Shown here: positions 1,890-49,300 of the stretch, piece after piece
Layout of the letters: the number at the start of each line of letters is the position of its first letter
How positions within the stretch are numbered: position 1 is the first letter of the stretch
IMG/VR virus record: IMGVR_UViG_3300025141_000053
Span: 32,001-83,799 of that record
DNA from: a virus
Direction: 5' to 3' (one strand)
Length of the DNA stretch: 51,799 nucleotides
Translations under genes and position numbers: made by a program
Notes under the pieces: generated by a model
Databases searched by the model: none
Seen by the model: only the letters and a program-made list of their open reading frames with translations
Told to the model about the DNA's origin: nothing

Positions 1890-2188
1890 TGGTTAACTTC
1901 TCTAAACAGAGAGTTAATACATGTGTTAAGTTTGCAAAAGCATTTAGTTATTCCCTTCCTATAAAAATTACTCATAATATAACCCAATATTTAAACCCAT
2001 ATGCCAAGGAAACTTGGCCTTTTAAGCATACCAATATGCTTAGAATGGATGGAAAGAAATTTTTAATAAATGGAATGGGTGATACACACATACTAACTGT
2101 TACAATAAGAAAAGACGCAACTCAACAAGATATTGATGCGTTAGACAAATCACTTGATTTATATATAGACTTTCAGAAAGGAAAATAA
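1889..2188 (+). CDS. Protein of unknown function (99 aa)
   Basis: The start overlaps the previous stop and the stop overlaps the dnaE start (AATGG), a four-way coupled arrangement. The protein is basic at its N-terminus and contains an aromatic patch (ETWPFKHTNML). Its C-terminal half has a beta-beta-alpha look (HILTVTIRKDATQQDIDALD). No family is recognised. The position immediately before the replicative polymerase makes a replication or chaperone-adapter role possible, but that is only context. Confidence 0.65.
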   Translation: MVNFSKQRVNTCVKFAKAFSYSLPIKITHNITQYLNPYAKETWPFKHTNMLRMDGKKFLINGMGDTHILTVTIRKDATQQDIDALDKSLDLYIDFQKGK

Positions 2189-28889: not shown

Positions 28890-29222
28890 ATGATATTAAA
28901 TTTAATAAAATTAGCAAAAGATTTAGATATTTTGGGGTATACCAAAGAATCTATTATTATTGATGGTCTTATAAAAGAAGCCCAAAATAAAATTATACTA
29001 ATAAAATTGTATGGTAGAATAATCATGAAAAAATATATTATTACAATTAGTACTGTGGATGATACTACTAAGGTGGGAAATGCTAAGAGTTTTAAGGGAA
29101 GTCAAGAACAAGTTGGCTTAGCTAAGCAGTATTTACAACAACTTATACAGAAATATCCGCAGGTAAAAATAGATCATGATTTGAGTTCAACATTAACACC
29201 TCAAATGTTTGGGATAAAGTAA
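28890..29222 (+). CDS. Small tagged protein (110 aa)
   Basis: The first 29 bases (28890-28918) are identical to the start of the gene at 26071, giving the same tag opening, MILNLIKLA, then KESIIIDGLIKEA. A second unit starting MKKYIITISTVDD follows, with its own in-frame Met, a small beta-rich domain. This shows the tag joined in front of an unrelated short domain. AAGGGGAAAT is the ribosome binding site. The function of the domain is unknown. Confidence 0.66.
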   Translation: MILNLIKLAKDLDILGYTKESIIIDGLIKEAQNKIILIKLYGRIIMKKYIITISTVDDTTKVGNAKSFKGSQEQVGLAKQYLQQLIQKYPQVKIDHDLSSTLTPQMFGIK

Positions 29223-31246: not shown

Positions 31247-31483
31247 GTGGAAGAAAAAACAGTACAAGAAATACAGAAAAAATACAAACAGCAACTGAGG
31301 CAATTGGAAGAAATAGGAAAAGTTGGAGATCCACATTTAATGAAAAAAGTAGATTCTCAGTTAAATCAAGAATATAAACAAATTCTTTCAGAATTTCATT
31401 TGATTTCTGCTAAATTATCCTTATTAAAGAAATTATGTGGTGAATCACAGAGATTGACAAAAAAAGCGATGAGGAGAAAATAA
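31247..31483 (+). CDS. Small coiled-coil protein (78 aa, GTG start)
   Basis: GTG at 31247 with AAGGA just upstream. The sequence is basic and heptad-like throughout (KKYKQQLRQLEEIGK, LNQEYKQILSEFHLISAKL). Its stop overlaps the next start (TAATG). Small coiled-coil proteins after the portal can be scaffold or head-assembly factors; no stronger evidence here. Confidence 0.58.
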   Translation: MEEKTVQEIQKKYKQQLRQLEEIGKVGDPHLMKKVDSQLNQEYKQILSEFHLISAKLSLLKKLCGESQRLTKKAMRRK

Positions 31484-32391
31484 TGATAGTACAATTAACT
31501 AAACTAGCAAATAAATTAGATATTTTTGGCTATATAAAAGAATCTAAATTTATAGATAAGTTAATTAGAGAAGCTATTGATATGTCACTTGTTGAAAAGT
31601 TTAAAGAGGGATGGTCTCCTGCTTGTCCTAATCCAAGTTGTAATAAGCCTGTAGAATTAGATCCTTCAGTTTTTACTAAAATGTTTGTCCCAGATGAGAT
31701 TTGTCCACATTGTGGAAGAAATTTTTCTCCACATGATGTTGGAGCAGTTAGAAAAACTTATGATGATACTGGAATAAATGATAAAACTCCTTTTAGTAGT
31801 GGACTAACTAATGAAGAAAGGGGTCTTTGGGGATTTTACAGTAACGGATTTTCTTATTTTGTGTTTCGGGGTAAAAGTAATGCTGAACAATTTTTAAAAA
31901 GATGGAGAAGTGGTGGATATGATCATTACCTAGATCTTATAATTGAAGATACTTATAAAGATTTAGATTTTGATATTTCAAGAATTGCTGAATATACAAT
32001 TATGAGAAATATAGAACTTATGACGGGGCCTCCTTTGGGTGAATTGTCAGACGATGATAAAGAATATATTAAACGGCGTGTTGGTAATCCCGGTAAAATA
32101 CAGAGCGAGATTCAAGAAAAAACATCTAAGATTATACCATTACCAGATATTGATTTAGGTAGCTCGGCAATTGTTCCTCCTGGAGAAATGCCACAACTGG
32201 AACATTATAAAGCTTTACATGATTCTGAAGAAATATTGGATATTGAGGAAAAGGATGAAGTTTGGAAAGAAGAATTGGATGGTGTTTATGACACTTATGT
32301 AAAGCCACTAAGAAAAGAACTTACAAAAAGGCGTGAGGCGAGAGATAAGGGGATAGACCCTGATACATTGGCAGACGATAAAATTTGGTAG
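31483..32391 (+). CDS. Tagged zinc-ribbon protein, paralogue of the gene at 26071 (302 aa)
   Basis: Tag at residues 1-31 (VQLTKLANKLDIFGYIKESK then FIDKLIREA). The zinc ribbon (CPNPSCNKPVELD, CPHCGRNFSPHDVGA) and the RGLWGFYSNGFSYFVFRGKS segment align with the paralogue, as does the terminal DPDTLADDKIW. The middle differs more, so divergence is old. The segment after the ribbon, with a WxxYxxGxxxFVFxGK pattern, may be a small structural domain. Function unknown. Confidence 0.7.
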   Translation: MIVQLTKLANKLDIFGYIKESKFIDKLIREAIDMSLVEKFKEGWSPACPNPSCNKPVELDPSVFTKMFVPDEICPHCGRNFSPHDVGAVRKTYDDTGINDKTPFSSGLTNEERGLWGFYSNGFSYFVFRGKSNAEQFLKRWRSGGYDHYLDLIIEDTYKDLDFDISRIAEYTIMRNIELMTGPPLGELSDDDKEYIKRRVGNPGKIQSEIQEKTSKIIPLPDIDLGSSAIVPPGEMPQLEHYKALHDSEEILDIEEKDEVWKEELDGVYDTYVKPLRKELTKRREARDKGIDPDTLADDKIW

Positions 32392-32400
32392 GAGAAAACA

Positions 32401-33846
32401 ATGCTTACAATAAAACAGGCAAAACAATTTTCAGAAGTACTAGTAAAAAATGAATTATATAAAGATGCGAGTCATATAGATAAATATATTCTTTTGGCCA
32501 GTAACTCACCAATTGAAAAACATGCTGGCTTGTGGGATTGGGTAGGCGGGAAATTATCTGGTTGGTCCAAACGAATATTTTTTAAAAATTTCCGTCAAGC
32601 TTATTCTTTGGCAACTGAAATTCAGAAAGAATTGGATGATCACATGGGAAGAGTGGATGAGCAATTTGGCCAAACAAAAATGTATCTTGCCCGGCATGAC
32701 CTTATTAATTGGCAAAGGGCAATAGCTGAATTGGGCATCAATATCACTCCATCTGAGAGACTCGCAAATTTACAAAATAGATATAATGATTCCTTAAAAG
32801 AAATGAATAAGGGTGTTGGTCTCTTGAGTGATGAACAAAAAGAAGAATTAAAAAAAGAACAAAAAAAGCAGAAGAAACCTGCCCCATCAACTGAAACTCC
32901 AGGAGATACTACTCCCGTTGCTGAAGATGATTCTGCCGAAAAGTTAGATGAAATTCCAAGAATAAAAAATCCTGAAGAAATGACTGCAGATCAGTTAAAA
33001 CGTTTAAAAATGTTATTAGGTGCCCCAAGTGAGGATTATGCACGCTGGAATAGATCAATAATCTTCTATAATAAGAGGTATGCAACATCTGATTATTCAA
33101 ATGTTGCGAGAATAGCCATACCAAAAAAAGTTTTTGATTACCATGTTGATAACTCTCATTTTAATTCAATAACAAGAGATGATGGTAAAAAATATTTTAT
33201 GGTCAATCAGGCACCAAGTGCTAACTTGTCCAACGAATTAAAAAACACAGTTGCTGCCGAAAATATAATTAATGCTGCTTGGGTACAAGATGGAGAATTG
33301 ACGGATAAAGATGGAAATAGTTGGATTGAATTCGCCCAAGTAGATCGTTCTCAAGTTGACATGTTTCATGAAGATCTTGTTACACCAAAAACACCAGAGG
33401 AGGCTGTGAGGATCGAAAATACGGCAGATTACGAATTTTTTGAGGGTGATAGCGGTTCTATTTATTTACCGAGAAAGCAGTTTGAAGCAGGACTTTCTGA
33501 GGGGTTTGTCGAACTTACACCAGATGGAGATATTGGTCCTGTTAAGTTTGTTAAATTAGTTATTGACGCGGCTCATCCAGAGTGGAAAAATATTTTGCGA
33601 TGGAGGGGCAGAGACGGGAAAATTCTAAGATGTGAGTACGTATCAGATGATTGGATTAAAATTAATAAAATAACTGTCACCACAATGAAAAAAGAACTTG
33701 GGATAAGAACTCCATCTGACATGACTCCAGAAGTAGAGTCAGAGGTTGAATTAGAGGATATTGATGTTCCAGAATCGGAAGATGGGGAAGAATCCAAAAC
33801 CGCAAAAAGGCTTGATAAAATAATTGCATTAGCTATGATGATGTAG
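32401..33846 (+). CDS. Unknown late protein with tag motifs at both ends (481 aa)
   Basis: GGAGAAAACA precedes the ATG. The N-terminal tag variant contains ASHIDKYILLA (residues about 23-33), and the last residues are AKRLDKIIALA plus MMM. The C-terminal motif matches the linker that separates modules in the giant protein encoded next. A central region has long helices and an acidic/Pro linker (residues about 140-190), followed by a beta-rich domain (NRSIIFYNKRYATSDYSNVA ...). I do not recognise the family. Its layout links the tag on small proteins with the linker in the giant. Confidence 0.65.
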   Translation: MLTIKQAKQFSEVLVKNELYKDASHIDKYILLASNSPIEKHAGLWDWVGGKLSGWSKRIFFKNFRQAYSLATEIQKELDDHMGRVDEQFGQTKMYLARHDLINWQRAIAELGINITPSERLANLQNRYNDSLKEMNKGVGLLSDEQKEELKKEQKKQKKPAPSTETPGDTTPVAEDDSAEKLDEIPRIKNPEEMTADQLKRLKMLLGAPSEDYARWNRSIIFYNKRYATSDYSNVARIAIPKKVFDYHVDNSHFNSITRDDGKKYFMVNQAPSANLSNELKNTVAAENIINAAWVQDGELTDKDGNSWIEFAQVDRSQVDMFHEDLVTPKTPEEAVRIENTADYEFFEGDSGSIYLPRKQFEAGLSEGFVELTPDGDIGPVKFVKLVIDAAHPEWKNILRWRGRDGKILRCEYVSDDWIKINKITVTTMKKELGIRTPSDMTPEVESEVELEDIDVPESEDGEESKTAKRLDKIIALAMMM

Positions 33847-33854
33847 GTGATAAG

Positions 33855-36800
33855 ATGATATCTAAAGTTACGGCGACAGATCTTGGCCAAATTGTAAATC
33901 TTCTGCAAAAACAATTGATGCCAGAAGAAACATCTCCTAAAACCAGTCCTCAAGAAACTGTTTCAAAAGAAACTATATTGAGACCGCTTCCTCTTGTTGA
34001 TACAAAATTAGCATATGATATTATTATTGGTTTAGAAACTGGTGGCAAATATGCTGTTGGAGATCTTGAGACTGGCTATGGATTGGTGGGAAACCAACTA
34101 TCAGCTTTTTCTAGACACCTATCAAAAGATCCACTATCTGAGAAAGTAACTGGAATAAGTTCTTCTGATTATAAAACAATTGGAAGTGCCCATGGTAATG
34201 CTTGTAGGGCACTGAGAAAAATAGATTATTGGAAAGAGGTTCCAATTGATCAAGATGCTGTCGAATCTTATTTTAAAAATAATCCTCGAAAATATAGACG
34301 GAAGGTTTTAAAATATACTTTACCAAATGGCGAAGCTATTATTGCCAAAAAGAAAGATGGTGGCTGGAAAGGATATGGTGTTGATTATAGTAAATTAAGT
34401 GGCTACATGAAAATAACTCCTGAGTCAAAGTCTAAAATCAATCGCATTGTTAGTAGATATATTACTGGCAATGTTAACTTAAGTGCTATAGCCAAATTAA
34501 AAGCTTCCCAAGATCATCCAGAACTTTATAAAAAATTTGATGATACATTTACTGATGCAAAAAAAGTAAGAAAAAATAAATCATTAATGGCATTATGTGA
34601 GAGAATGGCGCAAAGAGATTTCTCTGGCCGCATAAATTCTGTAGTTAAAATGGTTCAAAAATATGGATATGATGTTTCCAACTCACAAGCCTATAATATT
34701 TATCAACTAATAGCAATAGCAAATGCTAGTGGCCTTGGCCGACTTAGTAGATTCTTAAAAAACAAACAAACTTTTTCTGAAGGCCACTTATATTATTTAA
34801 AAAGGGCAAATCCTGCCATTCAAAAGAAAACTGGTATTTCAACACAAATGCCTCCGAATGGTGGGTTGGCTGGTTTTAAACAAAAGACAGCAATGATATC
34901 AAAGAGAGCAATTATGAAATCAATTCCTTTCCCACAAGATTATGTAGAGTCAATTAAGAATGGCCAGCGAACATTTACCATAAGACTTGAAGATTATGGT
35001 GTAGAGCCTGGTGATACTGTACAAGCTATTACAGATGCTGGTGCTCACTTCTGTGATCTTTCTATAGAAGAAGTAAAAAAAATGACTCCATATAAAATAG
35101 GGAAAGACATAAGTGAACCATTAGGACTTGATTTAGAGGAGAAGTTTAAATTTCAGCCCGAAGTAGAAAATTTCTTTGTTATTAAATTTTACAATCCTAA
35201 TATAAAATATGCTTCTGATAATAAACATATTGTGGTGGATGATGGGGCAGAATTTTTAATTAATGCGTTACATATATTAGATTCTTCTTTTTCAAATTGG
35301 GAAAAGTATATGGATTTTGAATATGACATTATAGAAAATTTTTCTTTATATCGTGTAAAATTTATAATTATATTAGATGATTTGCCAAATAATTTTATTA
35401 ATCTGAGTCCCTTATTTAGACAAGATATTTTCTCAAGAACAACTCATGAAGATCATTACATACAAGTATCGTCTTATATAAGGCAAGGAGAAACGGAAAA
35501 ATTTTCTGAAATTGTAGATATTTTATATAATATAATAGAAAAATCTATATCAAATCAAAAAACAATTATACAAAAATTTATTAAAACAATAGCATCTATT
35601 ATTTCTGATAATGATTATCATAAAGATGATGTTTACTCTGTAGTAGACCCGTTTTCAGTTTTTAATAGATCTAAAATAATTGTTCCTAAATCTAGTTTTG
35701 TTTTTAAATTGAGCGAATTTAATCTACTTCCTCAAGAAAGAGAAGTGTTTAATTTACATTTGGGCGAAGAAAAATCTAAAGAGACAGATTTTAAAATTTA
35801 TTCTAATAATGGCAAATCAATATTTATTATCTCATTAGAATATCCTGATGTAAAATATATTGATGAAAAAAAACAAAAAGAAAATGTTTTAGGGCAAAAA
35901 AAGAAAAATAAATTAATTGGTTTAAATACTGAAATGATGGATCATATCATAAAAGTTATGGGTAATAAGATTAAATCATTTAATAATGATGGTGTTAAAC
36001 CTGGTTTTGTTACAAAAGTATCAGAGTTATATCATGATCCATTTGGCGCTTCTGGAAAATTTTTTAACCAAGATATAGAAATTTTATTTCGCCTAGAAGA
36101 TAATCAAAAAGCAGCATATGAGGGGCTTTATAATAGCAAAAAGAAAACAATTTCTATTTGGATCCCAGAAGAAAACATAGATTATGAGAAAATAGAATCC
36201 CTGTTAGAACATGAATTAGCTCATAGCGGAGAAGTTGTTTCTGGAGACCCGAGTGCAAGTAAATATATTGGCCCAGATAGAAATTTTATGGCATATTTAC
36301 ATAATAAAAATGAAATAAATGCCAGGTGGGGACAAATACTATTATCTTTAAGAAGAGATGGGTTATCAAAACACCATTTAGATTTATTTATGCGTGAAAG
36401 AGAAAGAATGACCGAGAAAGAAGAAGAAATATTTATGGAACAAGTTCGTGGCAGGGTAGAAAAAAACGCAAGAACAATTTTAGAAGCTATCAATGAGGGT
36501 CATAATTCTGTAGATATGATTTATAAAGTATTAAATGGTAGATTTACAAAAAGAGCAATTGAGACATACATAGATCATCTTAGGGGAGATGGTTTTTTAA
36601 GTAATGCCTCTCGTTTAGATAAAATCAAAAAACTTGCCACACAAACATATAGTGATAGAAATGATAATACATATAATGTTGATGAACTTATTAAAATAAC
36701 AAAAGACAATAAAATTACTGATGAGCCAATTAAAAAGTTCAAAAAAAATCTTAAGAAAAAAATGTGGGAAGATTCTGATGATAATGAAATTTCCTTACAA

Positions 36801-39800
36801 GATGTATTGGATAATAAATCTAAATATAGAAAAGAATCTTCTAGGATAAAAGAAGTTGATCTCAAATATCCGATATTGGTATATAAAGATACGGTTGTTG
36901 ATGGAAATCATAGATTATCTAAAGCATTTGACGAAGAAAAAGAAACTATTAAGGTTAGATATGTTACCAATAAACAAATGGAAAAATGTTTAGAAAAGGA
37001 GATAGATTTCCCTAAGTCAGAACACAAAGATATTAAAAAACAATTAAAAGAGCGGGGACATATATACACAACTCGTGTTGATAAAGATTATGGAAAATAT
37101 AAAGAAGGTGACATACTAACATCTCCATTTGGAACATTAAGAGTTAAAGATGTTGATAAATATAATAAGTTAGAAGATCATCCACATCTAGATGAATTGA
37201 CCGATAAAAATAAAGAGGATATTGGAAAACACAAATACGAATATATAAAACTTATAAGAAAAGAATCAGAAAGGATGAGGTTGATTTCGAAGGTCGCTGA
37301 AGATATAAGTAAAAAAGATGATATCGAGAAAATAATTGATGATTTAAATCCTGATATTGTTATTGATGCAGATATTGTGAATGATATAATTTTAGAATTA
37401 TCATTTGAGAGCGATTATAAAGATTTTATAGACTTATCTGATGTTGTTACTGGTTTAAACAATAACGAAGCATCAGTAATGGTAAAAGAGCATAAAGCAA
37501 TAGTTAGTCTTATTGGCAGAAATGGGTTTTCTCCAGATTTAATAAGAAAGGCTGCGGCAAACATAAACAGTGCTTTTAAAAAATCAAAATTAAACCAAGA
37601 AGCTATAATGGTTAAGATTTGGGCCAAAGTGTTTGGGTCTGTATCATTTGGCTATGGTGTAAAAGATGAACACTATTCTTTTAAGCTTTCTAGTGGTCCA
37701 TTTAGAAGATCACTAAAAATATTATTTCCTGAAAATCCCACAACGCTGTCTTTGTCTGAATTAAATGTTGATGACTCAAAAAAAAGAGAATTTGGGGAAC
37801 ACATATCGAAGATTTTGGGATATGGAATAGTATTCAAGAATTTTAGGATATCAATTGAGGGTGATTACGTAATTCTACTTTGTGTCCCTGATATGAAAAG
37901 CTCTAACTATATTAGTTTAAGGGAACAAAGAAAAAATATTTTAGAGCAAAAAGAAAAAAACCTTAGTGATATTGGGATGAATGAAGATAAGTTTAATGAG
38001 TTATTAGAAAGGACAAAGGCTTATTATAATAGTTTTGAATATGATGAATATACTGCAGAGCCGATAGATGAAGATCATCCTTCAACGCCATTGGAAAAAA
38101 TTTGGAGTGATCCCTATGGCGCAGCCGGGAAATTTTTTAACAAAAACACTAAAATAGTTTTGGCATTTCACGAAAGAACTAAAAATAATGGAAAATATTC
38201 TGGAAAATATTTGCCTGATGAAAATTTAATTGTTGCTTATATTTCAGAAAACGACCATGTAGATTTGGCTATGATTGAATCTATTATAGAGCATGAATTA
38301 GTTCATAGTGGGCAAGGAGATTTTAGTGGATATATTAGTTCTGAAGAAAATAGTTTAATATATCTTTTAAATAAAAGTGAAATAGATGCCAGATGGGGAG
38401 AAATATTATTTAGTTTAAGAAAACATGGTCCTAGCCCTATTTATTATGGGTTGGTTAGTGATGAACGCAAAAGAATGACCAATCAAGAAAAAGATGTGTT
38501 TGATGAGTGTATTAAAAAAATAAGATCAAAATATCAAAATATTATTCTGGAAACAATAAATGAAGGGCATAACTCTATTGATATGGCATATGAGGCACTT
38601 GAAAGAAAATTCTCTAAGAAGGCAATAATGAAATATTTTGATGAGTTAGAATTTAATCATTTGATAGATACTGCCTCTCGCCTAGACCATATTAAAAAAC
38701 TTGCTTTTGGTGGAAAAGACCAGAAAATATTATATCACGTTGGTCCAAGGCCAGCCGAACCTAAGCCTTATAAACATAATATAGAAAAAGGATGGACTAG
38801 ATATTTTAAGGAAGATGGTGAACATAAAGTCATAAATTATGAACGTGCAGTATTTTTAACAAATAACTGGAAAAAGGTTTGGCAAAATCACGGTATTCAC
38901 GGAAATATTTACATATATAAAATTCCCATGGCCATGATAAAAGAGTCTGGTGGCATACAGAAATATGATTGGGCGACCGAAATTATATTTGATGAGAATT
39001 TATGGAATAAATATAAGAAAGATGTTGTTTTTGTTGGATCTATAGATGAACAAAAAGCAGAAGAAATAATGAAAGACTATTTTGAAACACGGCCAGGGAT
39101 TGGCAAAAAGCAATTAGAGAGAGAGATGGAAGATGTAGTTGATAGGCTTTTATCTGGCGAGGCAAATATAGAATCATATTCTTACTTTTCTAATGATCGT
39201 CTAAATACAATAAAAGATATGTTAAATAAAAAAAATGCTGGCGAGGAAATAGTCTCTCTTATTGATCGTATATTAAGAGTGAATGCCATTTACCAAAATA
39301 TCGATGACAGGGAAGCATCTAGGATTGATAGAATAAAAAAAATAGCCAATTTTCCAAATGAATTATTGGAGAAATTAGATGATATTAATTATGGATTGGT
39401 AACAACAGATGACGAGGAACTATCTCAAGAAAAAATGGATTCATTAGACGATGAGAATGTTGATTGGTGGAAAAATGGAGATAATATTAAGTTATTGACC
39501 ACAGAAGAGACATTAGATAGAAATATTGGAAGTTGTTATGAGCAAAGTCTTCTAGAATATAAACTATTGGATGAGGCTGGATATGACCCAATAATGGTAT
39601 TTGTTAATCCAGAAGATGGTGAGGGCAATGGGCACAGTGCTATCTTTTATAGTGAAGGAGATGAATGGTATTGGATAGAACATTCTTGGGGTGATCAACG
39701 GGGAATCCATGGACCTTATGATAATATAAATGACGGAATAGATATTATGATAGAAAAAATGTCGATGGGATGGAAAAATGTTACTAAATATTATTTAAAT

Positions 39801-42800
39801 AAAGATATGGATCCTTCTCTAATACTAGACAAAGAAGGATTGACTTATAAAGATTTTAAAACTCAAGGTTTGAAGGGAGCATCAATAGAGAATGTAGAAG
39901 AATATTGTAACGATGCTAAAGTAGGCTCAAGGCTTGACTTAATAAAGAAAGTTGCCAGAAGAATTAGTATACTATATTTACAAAAAAAATACAAACATGT
40001 TTATAAGCATATTGCTGATGAGTTAATAAGTGTGGGGAGATCTTCTAATAATTCTAAATTTTTTGACAATGATGATGATGCATTAGCTGCTTTGAGCCGG
40101 CCACCTGAAATTATACGAAGATATTTAAATGATAAACTTCCAAAAGATGTTATTGTAGAAGTTTATGATGATGGTATGGAGGATACGTTTTATTTGGGAC
40201 CGAGAGGCGGATATTTAGAAAAACCAATTAGTGGAAGATGGATTCATGTAAGTTGTCTTCCAAGGGGAAAAAATTTAGACAATTATCTTCGTAAATTTTT
40301 AAATATAGACAATCATGTTTGTTTTTCTTCGGTCGGAAATCAATCTGGAGATGAACTTTATGTAGAGGGAAGAACTGACCAATTTTTTGCAATCATTATG
40401 GATGGGGAGGCAGACGGGGCTTTTGGCCATGATGTTTATTCTGATATTGATGAGTGGACAAATAGAAGATGTATTTCTGGTTTGACTAAAAATAAGCGAA
40501 AGCCTCCCGAGACTATTTTTGAGGCTTGGGTTATCCCGAAACAATCAAAATTTGTTTGTATTGTTTCAAATATAGATTCTATTATAAAAGAAGCCGAAGA
40601 ACTTGGGATTAATATAGTTAAAAGTAGTCCAATTGGGTTTGGAAGGAGTGATAACGAAATAGATAAAACTGATTTGACTTATGAGGATAGTGTTGAACTA
40701 GAAAATGAACTAGAAGAAACAGATAAGTGGATGGATAAGGCTCAAGAATATGATTCTGATTATTATAGAAAACCAAAGAAAAATAAGTCTATAGTCGAGG
40801 AAGACGAGGAAGATTCATGGGAAGATTACGTCGAAATATCTGGATCAAGATTTGACCAGATTAACAAGTTAGCAGTTTCCCCAGAAAAACCTTCTGGTAT
40901 TTTAACGCCGCCAGAAGATAAAGTAAAAATGGTATCTGATTATATTCGTAAACATTTCTATCCAGCATTATTTTCACATTGGGGAAATTGGAAAGAAAAA
41001 TCAAATTTTATATTGAAAGAACTTAATGATGCCAAAAAACAATTGGAGCAAGACAAAAATGCTTTGCCATCAATCTGGATAAAAAGAGAAAAAACCAATT
41101 TGACCATTGATAAAAAAGAAACTAGTTGGTCGCTTTTTGGGAATGGAAAATTTCTAGATATTAAATTTTTATCAGCAGGTAATATAGATTTTAAAGAAAA
41201 AATTATAGATATAATTGACAAAGAAGAGAAGTCTTTGCGAGAGGATTTTGAGTGGGCTGGAAAAGTTCCACAAGAAAAAATTGATATTTTAAAAGAATAT
41301 GCCAATGGCCAAACTATTACTTTGCCAAATACAAAAGATTTTAATTTTGAAATAGACAATTATCCTATAATGATAAGAGTTGTTTTTGATCCTACAGCAA
41401 GAACACATTATCATTCAAGAGATTTTGTTGGATATATAATACTTGGATCACATTCATTTTCGCCATATCAAACAAATCAACAATATTTCTTTGAAGCACT
41501 TCGTGCTATCCCACATGAATTTACACATGTAATGCAAGATATTCTTGCCAAAAAACTAGGTAAAGAGAGACATGAGGTTGGTTTGTCTTCTTCTAGAATA
41601 GGTGATAAACCAGAGCATCATTTGAAACCACATGAATTTAAAACAAACTTAGTAACTACTATAGAAGATATTAAACAAAATTTATTACAATATCCTTCCG
41701 ATGAGAGAGGGGAAATCCTCAAAATGAGATTGGCAGTTATTCCTTCAGAAAATAATTATGGACCTTGGAATTTAACACATGATAGGACAATGGTTTTATT
41801 AAAAAAAGATGCTCCTATAAAATGGAAAAAAGCGGTCAAGGAAGTATATCAGGCAGTTGAAAATTTATTACAAGACAAAGTTGCCCAGAGGCTTAATCAG
41901 ATAAGAAAACTAGCACAAAGAAGCAAGTACGAAATACTTATTGGATATCTTATAAATATATTAAATGATATGAATGTATCGAAGTCAGAAGTTATTATTG
42001 GAGGAAGTGGAATTCTTGGCGCTTTAGGATTAAAATCTGTTGGCGATTTAGATATTACCATTCCGGATAAAAAAGCATGGAGACGGATATCACAACATCC
42101 TAATGGTATTGTGGATGAAATTCGCCCAGGAAATCCTAGAGTTAGATTTGATTTTCCAGAAGGTGAGTTAGAAATATTTACTGGGCCATGGAAAGTTGAC
42201 GAAAGAGATTTTGCTGAAAATATGCTATTAACAGATGTAGAGGGAATTAGTCATTGGAGTCCAGAGCATACGCTAGAATGGAAACAGATGATGAACAGAC
42301 CAAAAGACCAGAGCGATATTGAATTACTTGAAGGTTTAAATAAAAAATCTTCAAGACTTGATAAATTAGCAAATGAAATTACATATCTTAATCAAAAAGA
42401 ACAAGAAGAAAATGTTTTATATGATAAAAAAATGAAGAGAAATGTTGGATTAAATGAAAAATATATTTCTTCTCTTATTAATGGAACAAAATCATTTTAC
42501 AAAAATATAAATGAAGAGTACAAAAAATTGGGGATAGATGAATATAATCCTAAATCAACATATGATATTTCAAGTAGTCATCCATATCTTTATGTTGGAG
42601 ATATATATTTTGACCCATATGGAACATCAACAAAATTTTCAGACCCTACCCTTAAATTATATTTTATAAAGTTAGATCCTATGGCTGTAAGTAAAATCTG
42701 GGGCAATATGCCAAGAGTTGGTTATGGTGGAATATGTGGAGGAGACAAAATATTAGTTATGATTCCTGATTTCGACAATGTTGATTTGTCGAAAATAGAA

Positions 42801-45800
42801 TCTACTCTTGAACATGAATCAACACATGGGGGCTTAATCTCTTATCCAAAATATACGTCGATAGAAGATGGCGAAGAAAAGTATATGAGACAACACATAG
42901 AAGTAGATGCCAGATGGGCTGAGTTATTAAGAATTCTTAGACGATATGGTCCAGGAGATTATTTAACAAAGATTAAAAATTTAGAACTGGCAACTTTAAT
43001 AGATGTCGATGACAAGAAAAAATATAATGAACAGTTTAATAATATAGTAAATAAATATGCTGATATTATTTTAAATACTATTAATGAGGGATATAACTCA
43101 CCTGAAATGGTATATAAAGTATTAGATCGCAAGTTTACATTAGAGGCAATTAAGAAATATTTTGATTACTTAAAAGAAAAAGGGTTAATGAGTTATGCGT
43201 CAAGATTTGATAAGATATATAAATTAGCAGGAATCAGAGAAAATCTTATAAAAAAATATCCTGATTTAAAAAAATATATTTTAGAAGTAGCACACAAAAT
43301 CGATAAAAGATATCTAACATGGTTTACGAAACAACTTGTAAATTTTGAGAATAAACAAAGTGGCGCTGTACGATTATATGATTATATTACAGAATTTAAA
43401 AATCATCAGCAATTGTTGGAAAATAAAGATTTGTATCAATACAATTTCCAGTCTTTGCAAAAAGCTATTTCTGAAATAAAGAAACAGAAACATGAGGCGC
43501 GGGAAGTTGCAAAACAATATTTTGAGTTGTTAAAACAAAAAAGGGAAGAATATCGTAATTTAAATATGGATAGAAAAGAGATAAGATCAAAATCATATGA
43601 AGATGGGAGAAGATTTCTTAATAATATAGAACCTAAATCATTTCAGAGTTTTGTGAGACAAGAAATAAGTAAAGTTATTGAAGAAAGAGAGAGATTAAGA
43701 GGAAAGGAGAAAACGGCAAGAGAAAATTCTGATGTTATTTTTGAAGATGAGAACTATTTAGTAATATTGCCAGGAACAGAGCAGGCTTCTAAATATTTTG
43801 GTTCTGGGACACAATGGTGTACAGCGACAGAAGAAAATAATATGTTTGTAGTTTATTCTTTGGAAAATGTATATCTGTATTATATTTTAAATAAGGAAAA
43901 TGATGATAAACATGCTTATACAATTACTAAATATAATGATCAGATTGACGTAGACATTCGTGATATTGTTGATTTTCAAATAGATGAAGCAACTCTTAGT
44001 AAAGCACTTGGAAAATATTATGATAAGATAATTCCTATTATTAATAGAGATAATGAAGGTCGCAAGGAAACAAAATTCAAGGAAATAATTAAAACTATGT
44101 CTCCAACACAATTAAAAATAGAATTGGAAAACTTAGATATATCTCAGAAAATAATCCAATATGACTACTTAGAAGATTTTTCTAGAAATATGGAAACGAG
44201 AAAGTATTGTACAAGTCAATTAAAACTTTTTGCTACAAGAATAGCAACACATGATTGGACTAAAGCTGACTTGTTTTATGCGTATGGGTTAGATAAAAAG
44301 TATCCCGAATTACATGATTTATTAATCGAGACAATAGCGGAAGGCCCAGAACCAGAATTCTTTTTTGATATAGGAGGCTTGAGCGAGAAATATCCTAAGC
44401 TAGCAAGAATAATACTTGAAAGAATGTCTAATTCTGGAAATATAGCATTCTTTTATTCAAAACTACATGAAAAATATCCCGAATATATCAGTGAAAATTT
44501 GGCTTATAGTCTTTTACACGACATTGAAGTAAGTTATTTGTTTTTTAGATTGGGCTTGCATAAGAAGTATCCTAAAGTAGTTGAAGATAGTTCAGAAGTT
44601 TTCTTGTCTAATAGTCATGATATGAGAGAATTATATTTAGAATATAAAATATATAATATTATACCAAATATTGCTCCAGAAATAATAAAAAGTGGTTTGG
44701 ATAATGGGTATGAAAACTATTTTCGCTTTAATGTTTATGAAGATCCCAGATATAGACATTACGGAGAAGAATATTTAAAAAAATATATAAATGAAGAGGA
44801 TTCTTGGTATCTTGAGGAATTATTTGAAAAACATAATTTGTACGATATTTACCCCAATATATTAAATAATGTAAAAGGGGCTAATGAAAAAAGTGCTTTT
44901 AAGATTAGATTAAATAAAAAAGTAGCATCAAGATTTGATAAGATATATAAATTGGCAAACTCCATTTCTTTATATCATTATGCCCCAAAAGAAGCCTATG
45001 AAGATATAAAAGAAAAAGGGTTAATGAGTTATGCGTCAAGATTTGATTTAATTAATAAGATAGCATCAGGAGATAGCACCAACTATCCAGAAGAACTATT
45101 AGAAAAAATGGATGATATTGATTATGGGTTGGTTACAATAGATGATGAAGAACTATCTCCGAAAAAAATGGATTCAATGGATGCCAAGAATGTTGATTGG
45201 TGGCAAGAGGGAAATAATATTAAATTATTGACTACAGAAGAGACATTAGATAGAAATATTGGCAGCTGTTACGAGCAAAGTCTTTTAGAATATAAATTAT
45301 TAAGTGAAAGTGGATATGATCCAATAATGATATTTATTCGGCCAAAAGATGGTGAGGGTAACGGACATAGTGCTGTTTTTTACAATGAGGAAGATGGATG
45401 GTATTGGATAGAACATTCATGGCATGACCAAAAGGGGATTCATGGACCTTATGAAAACATGAATAATGGGATAGATATTGTAATAGAAAAAATGTCTATG
45501 GATTGGAGAGATGTGACTAAATATTATCTAAATAAAAATATGAACATTTCTTCCATATTAGATAAGAAGAATCTGACATATAATGATTTCCAGACTCAAG
45601 GTTTGAGGGGTGCCTCATTAGAAAATATAGATACAGAATTTTATTTATATCATTATAGTCCAAAAGATGTAAGAAAAGATATAGAAGAAAGTGGTTTGAA
45701 GTCTCCATATGGATTAATTGACGATAATGACTATAAAGAACGTATAGAAAATTATAGAGATCGTACAGCAGAAACAATGGGTGTTCCCAAATCTAAAGTA

Positions 45801-46307
45801 ACTTATGAAGATGTTTTGGAAGGTTTAGAAAAAAGGCGTGAAGCAATGTTTGATGGTGAGGGAGGATCAAGAGCCCTATCTGTTCTTTTAGAGCCTATTC
45901 CTACTAATATTAAAGGAATAAATAAAGATATTAAAGAATATGCTGAAGAACATGATCTTTATAATATTGATTTTGTGGCAGCAGTAAGAGATGGAGTTAT
46001 AGAAAAGGCATCAATCGTAGAAGAAAAAGTGCGAAGTGAGCGCCCAGTTGAATTAGAAGATTTTATAACAGAACTAAAGGGCTCAAGAATTAAGGAAGAT
46101 CAATGGAAAGAAAAGGGGAAATTCTATTTTTCTGGTAAAGCACATGCCATGTTAGTTTTAAAAGATGGTATTTTGCCAAGCAAATATATATACAGAATTG
46201 AACATAAGCCAAGTACAAAAGATGCCAGAAAGGAAGAAATAGTGGAACTGATGACAGATGATGAGTTAGTTGAGACATATAATAATCTTATCGGAGAAAA
46301 TTCATGA
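33855..46307 (+). CDS. Giant modular virion polyprotein candidate (4150 aa)
   Basis: One uninterrupted frame of 4150 codons starting 8 bases after the previous stop and overlapping the next start by four bases. It is divided by a motif close to ASRLDKIKKLA, found at residues 918, 1607, 1821, 2024, 2330, 2677, 2832 (short form), 3115, 3691 and 3727, with a weaker copy at 1138. Between the motifs lie recognisable or repeated modules: an ASCH-like domain (about 355-450), three copies of one zincin module (active sites HELAH, HELVH, HESTH), another zincin (HEFTH), ParB-like and ASCH-like folds, two transglutaminase-like modules, an NTase-like module and a WCTA module. It has no signal peptide. 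I infer head-packaged cargo made as a polyprotein; cleavage is not proven. Confidence 0.75.
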   Translation: MISKVTATDLGQIVNLLQKQLMPEETSPKTSPQETVSKETILRPLPLVDTKLAYDIIIGLETGGKYAVGDLETGYGLVGNQLSAFSRHLSKDPLSEKVTGISSSDYKTIGSAHGNACRALRKIDYWKEVPIDQDAVESYFKNNPRKYRRKVLKYTLPNGEAIIAKKKDGGWKGYGVDYSKLSGYMKITPESKSKINRIVSRYITGNVNLSAIAKLKASQDHPELYKKFDDTFTDAKKVRKNKSLMALCERMAQRDFSGRINSVVKMVQKYGYDVSNSQAYNIYQLIAIANASGLGRLSRFLKNKQTFSEGHLYYLKRANPAIQKKTGISTQMPPNGGLAGFKQKTAMISKRAIMKSIPFPQDYVESIKNGQRTFTIRLEDYGVEPGDTVQAITDAGAHFCDLSIEEVKKMTPYKIGKDISEPLGLDLEEKFKFQPEVENFFVIKFYNPNIKYASDNKHIVVDDGAEFLINALHILDSSFSNWEKYMDFEYDIIENFSLYRVKFIIILDDLPNNFINLSPLFRQDIFSRTTHEDHYIQVSSYIRQGETEKFSEIVDILYNIIEKSISNQKTIIQKFIKTIASIISDNDYHKDDVYSVVDPFSVFNRSKIIVPKSSFVFKLSEFNLLPQEREVFNLHLGEEKSKETDFKIYSNNGKSIFIISLEYPDVKYIDEKKQKENVLGQKKKNKLIGLNTEMMDHIIKVMGNKIKSFNNDGVKPGFVTKVSELYHDPFGASGKFFNQDIEILFRLEDNQKAAYEGLYNSKKKTISIWIPEENIDYEKIESLLEHELAHSGEVVSGDPSASKYIGPDRNFMAYLHNKNEINARWGQILLSLRRDGLSKHHLDLFMRERERMTEKEEEIFMEQVRGRVEKNARTILEAINEGHNSVDMIYKVLNGRFTKRAIETYIDHLRGDGFLSNASRLDKIKKLATQTYSDRNDNTYNVDELIKITKDNKITDEPIKKFKKNLKKKMWEDSDDNEISLQDVLDNKSKYRKESSRIKEVDLKYPILVYKDTVVDGNHRLSKAFDEEKETIKVRYVTNKQMEKCLEKEIDFPKSEHKDIKKQLKERGHIYTTRVDKDYGKYKEGDILTSPFGTLRVKDVDKYNKLEDHPHLDELTDKNKEDIGKHKYEYIKLIRKESERMRLISKVAEDISKKDDIEKIIDDLNPDIVIDADIVNDIILELSFESDYKDFIDLSDVVTGLNNNEASVMVKEHKAIVSLIGRNGFSPDLIRKAAANINSAFKKSKLNQEAIMVKIWAKVFGSVSFGYGVKDEHYSFKLSSGPFRRSLKILFPENPTTLSLSELNVDDSKKREFGEHISKILGYGIVFKNFRISIEGDYVILLCVPDMKSSNYISLREQRKNILEQKEKNLSDIGMNEDKFNELLERTKAYYNSFEYDEYTAEPIDEDHPSTPLEKIWSDPYGAAGKFFNKNTKIVLAFHERTKNNGKYSGKYLPDENLIVAYISENDHVDLAMIESIIEHELVHSGQGDFSGYISSEENSLIYLLNKSEIDARWGEILFSLRKHGPSPIYYGLVSDERKRMTNQEKDVFDECIKKIRSKYQNIILETINEGHNSIDMAYEALERKFSKKAIMKYFDELEFNHLIDTASRLDHIKKLAFGGKDQKILYHVGPRPAEPKPYKHNIEKGWTRYFKEDGEHKVINYERAVFLTNNWKKVWQNHGIHGNIYIYKIPMAMIKESGGIQKYDWATEIIFDENLWNKYKKDVVFVGSIDEQKAEEIMKDYFETRPGIGKKQLEREMEDVVDRLLSGEANIESYSYFSNDRLNTIKDMLNKKNAGEEIVSLIDRILRVNAIYQNIDDREASRIDRIKKIANFPNELLEKLDDINYGLVTTDDEELSQEKMDSLDDENVDWWKNGDNIKLLTTEETLDRNIGSCYEQSLLEYKLLDEAGYDPIMVFVNPEDGEGNGHSAIFYSEGDEWYWIEHSWGDQRGIHGPYDNINDGIDIMIEKMSMGWKNVTKYYLNKDMDPSLILDKEGLTYKDFKTQGLKGASIENVEEYCNDAKVGSRLDLIKKVARRISILYLQKKYKHVYKHIADELISVGRSSNNSKFFDNDDDALAALSRPPEIIRRYLNDKLPKDVIVEVYDDGMEDTFYLGPRGGYLEKPISGRWIHVSCLPRGKNLDNYLRKFLNIDNHVCFSSVGNQSGDELYVEGRTDQFFAIIMDGEADGAFGHDVYSDIDEWTNRRCISGLTKNKRKPPETIFEAWVIPKQSKFVCIVSNIDSIIKEAEELGINIVKSSPIGFGRSDNEIDKTDLTYEDSVELENELEETDKWMDKAQEYDSDYYRKPKKNKSIVEEDEEDSWEDYVEISGSRFDQINKLAVSPEKPSGILTPPEDKVKMVSDYIRKHFYPALFSHWGNWKEKSNFILKELNDAKKQLEQDKNALPSIWIKREKTNLTIDKKETSWSLFGNGKFLDIKFLSAGNIDFKEKIIDIIDKEEKSLREDFEWAGKVPQEKIDILKEYANGQTITLPNTKDFNFEIDNYPIMIRVVFDPTARTHYHSRDFVGYIILGSHSFSPYQTNQQYFFEALRAIPHEFTHVMQDILAKKLGKERHEVGLSSSRIGDKPEHHLKPHEFKTNLVTTIEDIKQNLLQYPSDERGEILKMRLAVIPSENNYGPWNLTHDRTMVLLKKDAPIKWKKAVKEVYQAVENLLQDKVAQRLNQIRKLAQRSKYEILIGYLINILNDMNVSKSEVIIGGSGILGALGLKSVGDLDITIPDKKAWRRISQHPNGIVDEIRPGNPRVRFDFPEGELEIFTGPWKVDERDFAENMLLTDVEGISHWSPEHTLEWKQMMNRPKDQSDIELLEGLNKKSSRLDKLANEITYLNQKEQEENVLYDKKMKRNVGLNEKYISSLINGTKSFYKNINEEYKKLGIDEYNPKSTYDISSSHPYLYVGDIYFDPYGTSTKFSDPTLKLYFIKLDPMAVSKIWGNMPRVGYGGICGGDKILVMIPDFDNVDLSKIESTLEHESTHGGLISYPKYTSIEDGEEKYMRQHIEVDARWAELLRILRRYGPGDYLTKIKNLELATLIDVDDKKKYNEQFNNIVNKYADIILNTINEGYNSPEMVYKVLDRKFTLEAIKKYFDYLKEKGLMSYASRFDKIYKLAGIRENLIKKYPDLKKYILEVAHKIDKRYLTWFTKQLVNFENKQSGAVRLYDYITEFKNHQQLLENKDLYQYNFQSLQKAISEIKKQKHEAREVAKQYFELLKQKREEYRNLNMDRKEIRSKSYEDGRRFLNNIEPKSFQSFVRQEISKVIEERERLRGKEKTARENSDVIFEDENYLVILPGTEQASKYFGSGTQWCTATEENNMFVVYSLENVYLYYILNKENDDKHAYTITKYNDQIDVDIRDIVDFQIDEATLSKALGKYYDKIIPIINRDNEGRKETKFKEIIKTMSPTQLKIELENLDISQKIIQYDYLEDFSRNMETRKYCTSQLKLFATRIATHDWTKADLFYAYGLDKKYPELHDLLIETIAEGPEPEFFFDIGGLSEKYPKLARIILERMSNSGNIAFFYSKLHEKYPEYISENLAYSLLHDIEVSYLFFRLGLHKKYPKVVEDSSEVFLSNSHDMRELYLEYKIYNIIPNIAPEIIKSGLDNGYENYFRFNVYEDPRYRHYGEEYLKKYINEEDSWYLEELFEKHNLYDIYPNILNNVKGANEKSAFKIRLNKKVASRFDKIYKLANSISLYHYAPKEAYEDIKEKGLMSYASRFDLINKIASGDSTNYPEELLEKMDDIDYGLVTIDDEELSPKKMDSMDAKNVDWWQEGNNIKLLTTEETLDRNIGSCYEQSLLEYKLLSESGYDPIMIFIRPKDGEGNGHSAVFYNEEDGWYWIEHSWHDQKGIHGPYENMNNGIDIVIEKMSMDWRDVTKYYLNKNMNISSILDKKNLTYNDFQTQGLRGASLENIDTEFYLYHYSPKDVRKDIEESGLKSPYGLIDDNDYKERIENYRDRTAETMGVPKSKVTYEDVLEGLEKRREAMFDGEGGSRALSVLLEPIPTNIKGINKDIKEYAEEHDLYNIDFVAAVRDGVIEKASIVEEKVRSERPVELEDFITELKGSRIKEDQWKEKGKFYFSGKAHAMLVLKDGILPSKYIYRIEHKPSTKDARKEEIVELMTDDELVETYNNLIGENS
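34917..35205 (+). other. ASCH-like module in giant protein 1
   Basis: Residues about 355-450 (SIPFPQDYVESIKNGQRTFT, then VEPGDTVQAIT) have the strand-helix-strand pattern and 'GDxVxA' turn of ASCH domains, which are PUA-related and thought to bind RNA or modified nucleosides. It ends in NFFVIKFYNP. The match is by eye. Confidence 0.5.
35920..36605 (+). other. Zincin module copy 1 (HELAH)
   Basis: Residues about 690-917. IESLLEHELAHSG holds the metal site H786-E787-x2-H790; NEINARWGQIL, about 35 residues later, supplies a candidate third ligand Glu. The module ends with a helical part (AINEGHNSVDMIYKVLNGRF) and the linker motif. Copies 2 and 3 at 37962 and 42438 share all these parts. Confidence 0.7.
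36639..37265 (+). other. ParB/sulfiredoxin-like module plus second ASCH-like module
   Basis: KYPILVYKDTVVDGNHRLSK (around residues 1002-1021) has the ParB/Srx 'DGxHR' nucleotide-binding loop. GHIYTTRVDKDYGKYKEGD and SPFGTLRVKDV follow (around 1067-1110), an ASCH/PUA-like arrangement ending in a conserved helix. The module sits between linker copies at 918 and 1138. Confidence 0.55.
37962..38672 (+). other. Zincin module copy 2 (HELVH)
   Basis: Residues about 1370-1606, with H1480-E-L-V-H in IESIIEHELVHSG, then SEIDARWGEIL and the NEGHNSIDMAYEAL helix. The preceding part also matches copy 1 (DPYGAAGKFFN against DPFGASGKFFN). Confidence 0.7.
38706..39314 (+). other. Module of ADP-ribosyltransferase-like appearance
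   Basis: KILYHVGPRPAEPKP, then ERAVFLTNNWKKVW and GNIYIYKIP, ending near DWATEIIFDE. The order YHxG ... vFlt ... EI resembles small ART-type domains, but the catalytic Glu is not certain. A helical tail precedes the next linker copy. Tentative. Confidence 0.35.
39348..39923 (+). repeat. Transglutaminase-like module, copy 1
   Basis: Residues about 1832-2023. Candidate catalytic Cys1894 in NIGSCYEQSLLEYKLL, His1927 in GNGHSAIFY, and WYWIEHSW downstream give a Cys-His-(Asp/His) order like transglutaminase or papain-like proteins. About 70 percent of residues match copy 2 at 45066-45641 by eye, far more than between other modules. Confidence 0.65.
40875..41882 (+). other. Zincin module of a second type (HEFTH)
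   Basis: Residues about 2341-2676. RAIPHEFTHVMQDIL gives H2554-E-F-T-H; EHHLKPHEFKTNL later offers the third ligand. Its flanks differ from the other three copies in this protein but resemble the HEIMH region of the second giant protein. Confidence 0.65.
41916..42347 (+). other. Nucleotidyltransferase-like module
   Basis: Residues about 2688-2831. VIIGGSGILGALGLKSVGD then LDITIP has the GGS helix and DxD-type acid pair of minimal nucleotidyltransferase folds; FPEGELEIFTGPW could hold a third acid. It is unrelated in sequence to the CCA-like enzyme at 21867. Substrate unknown. Confidence 0.55.
42438..43196 (+). other. Zincin module copy 3 (HESTH)
   Basis: Residues about 2862-3114. IESTLEHESTHGG keeps both His and the Glu (H2987), followed by IEVDARWAELL and the NEGYNSPEMVYKVL helix. 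It is the most diverged copy of this zincin module. Confidence 0.68.
43171..43211 (+). repeat. 41-bp direct DNA repeat, copy 1 (spans a linker motif)
   Basis: Identical over 41 bases to 45007-45047. It encodes KEKGLMSYASRFD, the end of a zincin module and the start of the linker motif. Exact identity at DNA level, in a region where other linkers differ, points to recent recombination or copying. Confidence 0.9.
43230..44924 (+). other. WCTA module with helical repeats
   Basis: GSGTQWCTATEEN (W3321, C3322) followed by YSLENVYLYYILN is a pattern seen, from memory, in PcfJ-like and other phage proteins of unknown function. The rest (about 3400-3690) is a run of helical repeats with KKYPELHDLLIETIA and SEKYPKLARIILERM, each containing a K-Y-P turn. 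Confidence 0.5.
45007..45047 (+). repeat. 41-bp direct DNA repeat, copy 2
   Basis: Second copy of the repeat at 43171-43211. Here it follows a 15-residue fragment (SISLYHYAPKEAYED) that resembles the start of the last module of the protein (FYLYHYSPKDVRKD). The copy therefore seems to have replaced the rest of a module, leaving a remnant. Confidence 0.88.
45066..45641 (+). repeat. Transglutaminase-like module, copy 2
   Basis: Residues about 3738-3929, with Cys3805 in NIGSCYEQSLLEYKLL and His3838 in GNGHSAVFY. WYWIEHSW is conserved. It follows the recombinant-looking 41-bp repeat, so it was probably gained by duplication of copy 1. Confidence 0.65.
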
Positions 46308-49300
46308 AAAAAGAAAAATTATTAGATCTTGTAAAAAATGAAATGAAGAAAAGAAAAATTGATGTGTCTCAAAATGTTGATGATAACTATCGTACACAAT
46401 TTGATGGACAGCTTTGGGGTAAAGATTTTCAAGATCCAGAAACCGGATTATATGGTGATCCTCCTTCTGGAGATAGTGGGGTTATTACTAATCCTCCACC
46501 AATGGGGATGTTTTCCACAAGAACTGCTCAGAAACTTCTTGAAAGAATATGGACATTCGGAGAATTATGTAAGTTTGCTGTTGAAGATGATGAAGAAGAA
46601 GATGTAAATATTATAGATGTAGAAACAGTTGAGGAAGATTTAGAAGTAGATGAAGAAGGCGTCGTTGAACCAAAGCCATTTTCTCCTAAAAAAATAGTAG
46701 AATATATTCCTGCGCCACAACCGGCTAAAGCAATATCTTCAGAGGAGACTGAGGATTTCACATATGTTAAAAAGCCCCAAGTGAAAGAGGTTATAGAAGA
46801 GCCGGTAGTAGAAGAGGAAAAGACTGAAGAAGAGCCGGTAGTAGAAGAGGAAAAGACTGAAGAAGAGCCGGTAGTAGAAGAGGAAAAGACTGAAGAAGAA
46901 TTAAAAAAGGAATTGAAAGACCAAGAACTTCAGGAACAACTGGCGTCATTTTTAGAAGATCTCGATGACGAAGACTCTGACGATTCGGAAATTGATGACG
47001 ACAATCCTCTAAATAGTATGACGTTTGATGATTCCATTCCTGAATATATATCTGAGGAAGAAATTGAAAAACGCAGAGTTTATATGGAAAAAGTACATGG
47101 CATTCATGGAAGAAGTTATGCTGGATATTCTGAACTTATGAAAAGCGAATTTGGTTTGATTCCAGTAGACCAGCCAACTTTAGGAGACAAGAGAGAAGAG
47201 TTGAGTGACTTACCAGATGAAGAGACCGATCATTATTTTAACAAGAAAACACTTGGATCTCGTGAGGCGATTGATGAGTTATTTAGTTTGGGTACTACTT
47301 GGAGAGAACTGGGTAGACGATTAAAAGAAAATCCTGATTTTATATCATATCGTATTTTGCCAATGTTAACATTAATAGTTGGGAAAAGTGTTATAAAGAA
47401 AATTGTTAATTCTAGATATTTCTCGAAAGACCATAGTTCCATTTTCATAAGAGGTGTTAAGATACCTGTGGGAACAATTTGGATATATGGTCCTGGAATC
47501 AAAATACAGAGACCCGCACCAGAAGTTATTATTTTTGCACAAAAAGAAATACCTAAAATTTTAAAAGTTTATTTAGAAAATGGCTCGTCAAGCCCGCCCA
47601 AGGCTCCGATAATGGGCTATTTAACTAAGGCATTAGTAAATAACTTAAGCAACCATTTAGTAAGAGATACGGGAAATACTGTCTTAAAAACCAGACCAAC
47701 TTGCTCATTTTGTAATTTAAATAGAGGAAAAATTACAACTGACATGAAGTATGAGGGAGGATCTGGAAAGAAGCCATTGGAACCTGTTAGTCGAGGAAAA
47801 TATTTCTGTCCAAGATGCTATCAATATATCAGACATATGGAAAATAAGATGGATGAATTTAAAAAAGAGATGGACGAGACAAAATATATAATTGAACAGG
47901 CTCGTGCTTCTAATATGTTAGAAGTGGCAGAAGATCGGGAAGTTGTGTTAGCAGGACAAGAGCATAAAATGAAGGCCCTGGCTGACAGACATTGGGCTGC
48001 TAAAATATTTGCTAGACCGTCGAGGCAGCATATTGTTTGTCCAGAAGATTCATGTAGCGGTAGACAGAAAACTATAAATAATGAATATATGCCATCAAGA
48101 ATTCCTATTTCTTGTGTACACTGGGATCATCCATATTTTAGTGCGATTGACACAGAAACAAAAATGCAGGTAGAAAAAAAATTACTTACTTTTGGTGTTC
48201 AACCACCAGTTCAAACAGCAGATGATGCTCAAGTAGATGTTCCAAAAGATAGAATAAATTATAAAAATGTATTCATGGCTCCAGAAATATTATCTGAAGT
48301 TCCATTTAAGTGCCCATTTTGTTTTAATGTTTTCACGCCAAATTCGGCAAAAAATAAGGCAAATGGATGGGGTGGTTTGTTTATCAGACCAAGAGTTATT
48401 AAGTGGAATGAACCAGAACCATTTACTTTTCTTGATGAATGGGAAAACTTACAACCTTCTGCAGAAAAAGGAAATGAGGAAAATGATAAAAAGACACATT
48501 TTATTATTCCCCAACATTTTATTGAGTTGCTATTATTTGAGTTGACAAGACAAAGTAATAGTGTAAATACTAGACTCATATCAATGTCTCAAAAGAAATT
48601 ACCACCACAAAAAGAAATATCTGAACTTAAAAGGATGGGAAAATTGCTTGATGGTATTATTTCAAAAATTCATAATGATTTAAAATATCCAGAAAAAGAA
48701 TCGAAATTTGTCAACTCTTTTGGTAAATGGTTCTTTTTTAGAAGAGAAACTGGCGGCACGAAGAAGGACACCGACTTATATCCAATTTTTTCAAGCATAG
48801 TTGCTGATGACTTAGACTCTGTTGTAGATAATTTCGAAAGTGTAAAAGGAAATGAGACAGAGATAATGAAAGAGTTGGAAGAAAAACTTGGCCCCGGATT
48901 GACATTTGGAGGATTTAGAGGTGCGGCAAATGTGCTAAATAATATCCCTCAATTTGGAAATGTTAAAAAATCCCAATTAAGACCATATTTTGGTTTTGTT
49001 GGCCAAGTAGATGGCAATGGTATTGTTAGAGTGCCAGGTGTTATAGGCAACAAAAAATTTAAAACAGAAAATATAATTATCGGTGATGTGCTTTTTGCCA
49101 AGAATCTTGGAAATGATTGCCCCAACAAAGTTGTAAGTTTCAAGCCAGATTTATTTTCTGGAGAATTTTTAGATAGAAAACTAATTACAGTATTTTCTAG
49201 AAAAGTAGACATGAGCAGATTTTTTGATGTTAGTAAAGAGATCATGGAACAAATTGAAGAAATGAGAAAGAAATATGTTCGTGCTGGAACTCCAACAGGA

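Follow-up and report, generated by a model that had tools for sequence, protein, structure and literature searches.

The window analysed here, the whole stretch of 51,799 nucleotides, comes from an 83.8-kb viral contig (bases 32001-83799); ORF1 and ORF2 with their modules and motif copies, the terminase and portal genes and the tags described below lie on its plus strand. Its head-gene block includes a terminase large subunit (27037..28878; PF05876, E 5e-15), a portal protein (29232..31223; phrog_16240, E 2e-55) and a head-block protein with an N-terminal hairpin tag (32401..33846) immediately upstream of ORF1, a polyvalent polyprotein gene of 4150 aa (33855..46307) whose frame is unbroken and for which a long homologous ORF exists in an independent contig. 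ORF1 is followed by a second polyvalent ORF, ORF2 (46304..51799; 1832 aa), which has a Zn-ribbon region and a LigD_N 3'-phosphoesterase domain (51266..51571; Pfam PF13298, E 4.5e-24) and is truncated by the contig end. For this phage itself, the contig stops short of the protease and capsid genes. The gene order in relatives is terminase, portal, tag protein, giant gene(s), head-maturation protease and major capsid protein (MCP), the last two having PHROG matches in G004 with E 5e-11 and E 2e-76, respectively; this location in the head-gene block supports the internal head proteins proposed in a preliminary description of this DNA. Searches with the portal profile yielded 16 loci on contigs of up to 340 kb and no matches in GTDB genomes. 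The head block also contains a gene with a PolyA-polymerase/CCA-adding head domain (21867-22634), homologues of which are correspondingly placed in several relatives. Elsewhere in the window, a DNA polymerase III alpha-like gene (2188-6675) carries an apparent intein/homing-endonuclease-like insertion (CVDNDREIQKTKIVDLHDHGIVPLWEVEFDDGTIEKCTLDHKW...ASGFATSNSHA).

The single open frame of ORF1 carries a repeated motif, as first described. Motif scanning with shuffle scoring identified eight clean copies of [AG]SR[LIF]DxIxK[LIV]A, starting at aa 918, 1607, 1821, 2024, 2330, 3115, 3691 and 3727: ASRLDKIKKLA (36606..36638), ASRLDHIKKLA (38673..38705), ASRIDRIKKIA (39315..39347), GSRLDLIKKVA (39924..39956), GSRFDQINKLA (40842..40874), ASRFDKIYKLA twice (43197..43229 and 44925..44957) and ASRFDLINKIA (45033..45065). 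The same procedure revealed a degenerate copy, AQRLNQIRKLA (aa 2677; 41883..41915), and junction alignments placed two or three eroded copies at further module borders, including SERMRLISKVA (aa 1138; 37266..37298) and SSRLDKLANEI (aa 2832; 42348..42380). Clean copies score 27-32 bits, against 9.3 for the best stretch without the motif and at most 15 in shuffles; the degenerate copy, too, lies far above any shuffle, and the strict pattern did not occur once in 200 shuffles. One further clean copy, ASRFDQIYKLA (51623..51655), lies in ORF2, outside the range first described, at a border where an additional module stands in G001. The spacing had been called regular, but the distances between cores vary from 36 to 576 aa. 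The motif is probably a short amphipathic helix ending in the core PhixKxA. When DNA was scanned with a degenerate form of the full motif, seven stretches came up, none of which on inspection came from this phage group (no ORF was demonstrable for L015, and the rest were unrelated proteins or chance frames), and the exact ASR prefix is thus lineage-specific.

The modular architecture of ORF1 is supported by the following series of units. The N-terminal core module (aa 1-345; 33855..34889) shares 31-37% identity with parts of the giants of G003 and G004 and has the pattern E..GD..TGYG, which would make it lysozyme-like. Its retention in those giants, together with a glucosaminidase-like domain towards the N-terminal end of the G005 giant, suggests that it is likely a cell-wall (peptidoglycan) hydrolase. 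Next comes the core tag MISKRA (34893..34910), directly before an ASCH domain (34911..35264; Pfam PF04266 at the gathering cut-off) that is kept in G003, G004 and G005; tags of the type [ILM]xK[RL]A occupy that position in five phages (MISKRA, MISKRA, LLSKRA, PMYKRA and PLSKLA). Metallopeptidase module 1 (EHELAHSG), with the region before it, covers 35262..36605, and a ParB/sulfiredoxin-like module (36639..37265; phrog_17560; DGNHR pattern) follows, which is locally 43-49% identical to PA5oct-like phage proteins. Metallopeptidase module 2 (EHELVHSG; 37299..38672), delimited by paralogue and junction alignments, precedes a module that is ART-like by eye (ILYHVGPR; 38706..39314), tentatively so assigned and kept in G001, and the first transglutaminase/vasohibin-like cysteine-protease module, in which Cys and His are kept (39348..39923). 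After a module without family assignment, read from the translation (39957..40841), there are a fourth metallopeptidase-like module, whose HExxH was seen by eye (HEFTHVMQ; 40875..41882), a nucleotidyltransferase-like module (GGSGILGALG...DLDIT; 41916..42347; phrog_12854, without function) with a 69% identical counterpart placed elsewhere in the G001 chain, and metallopeptidase module 3 (EHESTHGG; 42381..43196). The GTxWCTA module with its helical repeats (43230..44924) matches phrog_17056 (E 1e-13). Neither this match nor that of the ParB-like module carries a known function, and a relative of the GTxWCTA module in PA5oct, EST35_0205, is annotated as a structural protein by ESI-MS/MS. The chain ends with the second transglutaminase/vasohibin-like module (45066..45611) and a C-terminal module (45612..46304) that is likewise ART-like by eye (LYHYSPK), its family tentative, and that in G001 is joined directly to the ORF2 equivalent.

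Pfam named most ORF1 modules weakly or not at all. Sequence searches of the PDB with the metallopeptidase and transglutaminase-like modules gave no credible match, no clear hit came from the viral fold library, alignments of both module types searched directly in viral contigs found no relatives, and tblastn with both ends of ORF1 found no match in isolated phages. For the transglutaminase-like module, vasohibins and CPR-C4 head the PDB matches of a low-confidence model, with E 0.009-0.03 and probabilities of up to 1.00.

The modules had been taken to be unrelated to one another, which does not hold throughout. The three EHExxH metallopeptidase modules are mutually paralogous (alignment A1), and the two transglutaminase-like modules, both keeping GSCYEQS and a His, are 75% identical, so that duplication accounts for some of the motif copies. 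The motif might on this ground be a mere helical spacer with no role in targeting or cleavage, repeated since modules were duplicated with their linkers. The structure models (mean pLDDT 46.6 and 45.3) agree with a spacer in that they place the motif copies in helices of low confidence, away from the better-scored cores; this also fits the linker position expected of the borders, yet it is weak evidence for that position, since about 65% of all residues are modelled with similarly low confidence. The motif is, however, also found on modules that are unrelated to each other.

Close relatives, contigs G001 and G002, were reached via the terminase, which in G001 is 91% identical. In G001 the equivalents of ORF1 and ORF2 are fused in a single frame, 3225 aa or longer, with the modules rearranged, and aligned junctions show that the motif is where modules have entered, dropped out or changed place. 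Between the ParB-like module and metallopeptidase 2 the window has ESERMRLISKVA, whereas G001 has AFRKREIQKLA, a nucleotidyltransferase cassette and ESRFDIIQKLA, the cassette being absent from that place in the window. Similarly, the window passes from LigD through ASRFDQIYKLA to VPSDA, whereas G001 reads LigD, VARIDKIKKLA, a transglutaminase-like cassette, KARFDLINKLA and VPSDA. Metallopeptidase 1 is missing from G001. These residue-level junctions bear out the earlier placement of the motif at module borders: the motif or an eroded form stands at most of them, but not at the ASCH border of the window or where the C-terminal module begins. Between window and G001, a core is no more than 35 aa away from 8 of 12 segment ends, where 21% would be expected (p = 8e-4). 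The last ~140 nt of the window (51660-51799) and of G001 (end of L011) are nearly or fully identical; over the final 120 nt the identity is 100%, although the modules alongside are different, and the two contigs stop at the same base, which reflects either recent exchange or a shared assembly break.

The change of cassettes at the motif could also mean that it is a recombination site, DNA repeated for cassette exchange, and the 120 identical nucleotides after the last ORF2 motif, with little similarity to G001 before the border, speak in the same direction. Codons nevertheless differ in 131 of the 216 pairs (61%) that encode identical residues across motif copies, which indicates that selection acts on the peptide, and most copies are too divergent for homologous pairing. 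A pure recombination-site reading was dropped because of this codon divergence, and we regard a recombination function as improbable. The same divergence between copies argues against a spacer that was merely copied along with its modules.

The core of the motif extends beyond this lineage and beyond the giant proteins. Two relatives, G005 and G006, use another repeated linker, LSKRA, which has the core PhixKxA in common with ASRxDxIxKLA; the G006 giant contains five exact LSKRA/ISKRA linkers (0.006 expected) and two G005 giants contain several copies of LSKRA, which also tags the N-termini of separate G003 and G005 proteins. The strategy can do without the linker, since G003 and G004 encode giants at the same locus without a repeated linker. 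PhixKxA occurs within the first 40 residues of 36 of 164 head-block genes against 4.4% in an internal control, a count for which the pattern was read off the data before testing, which was not blind for the head block, and in which homologues across contigs are not independent. The other regions were fetched after the pattern had been fixed: N-terminal cores occur in 2 of 54 early genes of this phage, and other phages are likewise at background. In the 340-kb contig, with one duplicated gene excluded, 11 head-block genes out of 42 have them, against 6 of 249 genes elsewhere (p = 1e-6). The head-maturation proteases of G004 and G005 have seven cores each where about one is expected; that of G003 has three and is not enriched. 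The earlier suggestion to search for single modules with the motif was fruitful, in that a shared tag with a related core is present on separate head-block proteins.

A second, longer tag is the hairpin LxxLANxLDxxGxxxEAxxIDxxI, which was found in all six group records searched and is confined to the head block in the 340-kb contig. In the window it stands N-terminally at 26071..26172 (MILNLIKLANRLDSLGYRKESGIIDVIIKRA), at 28890..28991 on a short protein that in other respects does not resemble its neighbours, and at 31483..31584. The protein at 32401..33846 ends with a C-terminal tag, TAKRLDKIIALA (33799..33834), which is kept in its G001 homologue. Conserved residues of the hairpin continue past LIKLA, which fits docking better than cutting. 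A profile search did not find the hairpin in Bacillus phage G, the portal of which is 36% identical to that of this family; N-termini of its head genes (L064:9524-21534), e.g. MKRLISKTAARYA and MSKKISRLKKTAL, are core-like with T replacing L/R. Portal N-termini within the family, including that of the window portal (29232-31223), share SPKxA..LS..RR, which resembles the PhixKxA core. In Salicola phage SCTP-2, modules related to those of ORF1 are separate genes with one common N-terminal peptide. Three paralogous GTKWCT proteins of this phage (L001:14992-20033) begin with MK[VI][KT]HITQYLFES, and its metallopeptidase-like gene 47 begins with MKVKQITEAI, which has a T4-like capsid-targeting look.

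Related cores at the N-termini of separate head-block proteins and at the C-terminus of the protein upstream of ORF1, and the use in other lineages of a different repeated linker with the same core, all run counter to a spacer without function, which we consider unlikely. The explanation that we favour, and hold to be fairly probable, is that ORF1 with ORF2 is an internal-head cargo polyvalent protein in which the linkers are tags for head targeting and/or maturation cleavage. Early-infection enzymes would be made as one chain, which would enter the prohead, the step that we grade as most likely, and be delivered with the DNA. The motif would dock the chain in the core of the prohead; it could also, or instead, be where the chain is cut into single enzymes, either by the head-maturation protease or by a peptidase within the chain. 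The PhixKxA core is likewise placed at the N-terminus, and sometimes the C-terminus, of separate head-block proteins in this phage family. With its own tag on every unit, cassettes can be acquired, discarded and relocated unit by unit. The context of the gene speaks well for packaging. Packaging in general is also supported by what is described for polyvalent proteins (PMC5512222), the relative of the GTxWCTA module detected by mass spectrometry in PA5oct and the shared N-terminal peptide in SCTP-2. Cleavage at the motif would be plausible.

Alternatively, ORF1 could be a late-expressed intracellular multi-enzyme protein that is left unpackaged and in which the motif docks to another phage protein or to a host protein. 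The placing of the gene within the head operon, flanked by portal and protease/capsid genes, the lysozyme-like first module and the detection of a module relative by mass spectrometry all weigh against this, and we find it very improbable. A bolder form of the cargo explanation is that PhixKxA is the cutting code of the head-maturation protease of this family; the polyvalent protein would then be a true prokaryotic-virus polyprotein, a dozen enzymes imported as one chain and released in the prohead as separate injected effectors, with the cassette grammar set by the cut site. ORF1 has a repeated border motif and embedded peptidase modules, and relatives have a head-maturation protease, and we offer this extension as a possibility somewhat short of an even chance.

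Giants of relatives contain DNA ligase, LigD, topoisomerase IB, polyA-polymerase nucleotidyltransferase, HD and 2'-5' ligase domains, in the manner of polyvalent proteins. At L039:6154-10401 and L039:12769-15795, ATP-dependent DNA ligase, LigD primase-polymerase-like, LigD phosphoesterase and topoisomerase IB domains are combined in giants that apparently constitute a packaged end-joining/repair kit.

Among systems with which ORF1 can be compared, the internal head proteins of T4 also carry a short peptide on unlike proteins, the capsid targeting sequence that gives prohead entry and is removed by the prohead protease (Mullaney and Black 1996, in PMC5694885). As outlined there, each of the separate T4 proteins has a single N-terminal peptide, whereas the tag of ORF1 is internal, repeated and different in sequence. 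ORF1 lacks the N-terminal targeting peptide per internal protein that marks the T4 type, and separate head-block proteins of the family do bear N-terminal tags, of another sequence; the system may work like the T4 internal proteins, and we claim no membership. DarB and DdrB of P1 are likewise very large proteins inside the head, there with an antirestriction role; DarB has a 30-residue N-terminal capsid signal and DdrB is processed, and the available parts of these accounts describe no repeated internal tag of the kind seen in ORF1 (PMC9024508; PMC5512222). In SPN3US and phiKZ-type phages, propeptides cut by the prohead protease (gp245) contain several copies of the protease motif and many head proteins are ejected, but there each propeptide is at the N-terminus of a protein of its own, the motif is another one, and no polyprotein joins modules (PMC10052503, PMC5694885).

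The closest comparison is with the polyvalent proteins (Iyer et al. 2017, PMC5512222), a known class of giant multi-enzyme proteins that are predicted to be packaged, injected and processed, so that the earlier statement that no such system had been described cannot be upheld. As characterized there, they have phage head-gene contexts and predicted proteolytic release, for which embedded metallopeptidases are proposed to split the chain, and they combine unlike enzyme domains, including one to five zincin-like metallopeptidases per chain, ParB-like, ART, lysozyme and nucleotidyltransferase domains. ORF1 with ORF2 similarly joins biochemically unlike domains (ASCH, LigD, HExxH, transglutaminase-like, ParB-like and nucleotidyltransferase-like) and is encoded with virion genes (terminase and portal, with protease and MCP downstream in relatives), and ORF1 is therefore a polyvalent protein and of a known kind. 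It differs in two respects from that description: Pol-beta nucleotidyltransferases are given there only for polyvalent proteins of conjugative elements, and the nucleotidyltransferase-like module here is in a phage; and searches of the text of that paper turned up no inter-module motif, whereas the units of ORF1 are parted by a recurring head-related tag. As far as could be found, repeated inter-unit head tags have no prior description. How polyvalent proteins are loaded and split has been a standing question since they were described, and the linker of ORF1 offers a concrete peptide at the unit borders; with the same core on head proteins and a candidate protease carrying it, packaging and cleavage become testable with single mutations. 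If the explanation is true, the tag would allow family-wide prediction of head cargo among the proteins of uncultured jumbo phages and could be used to carry foreign enzymes into large phage heads.
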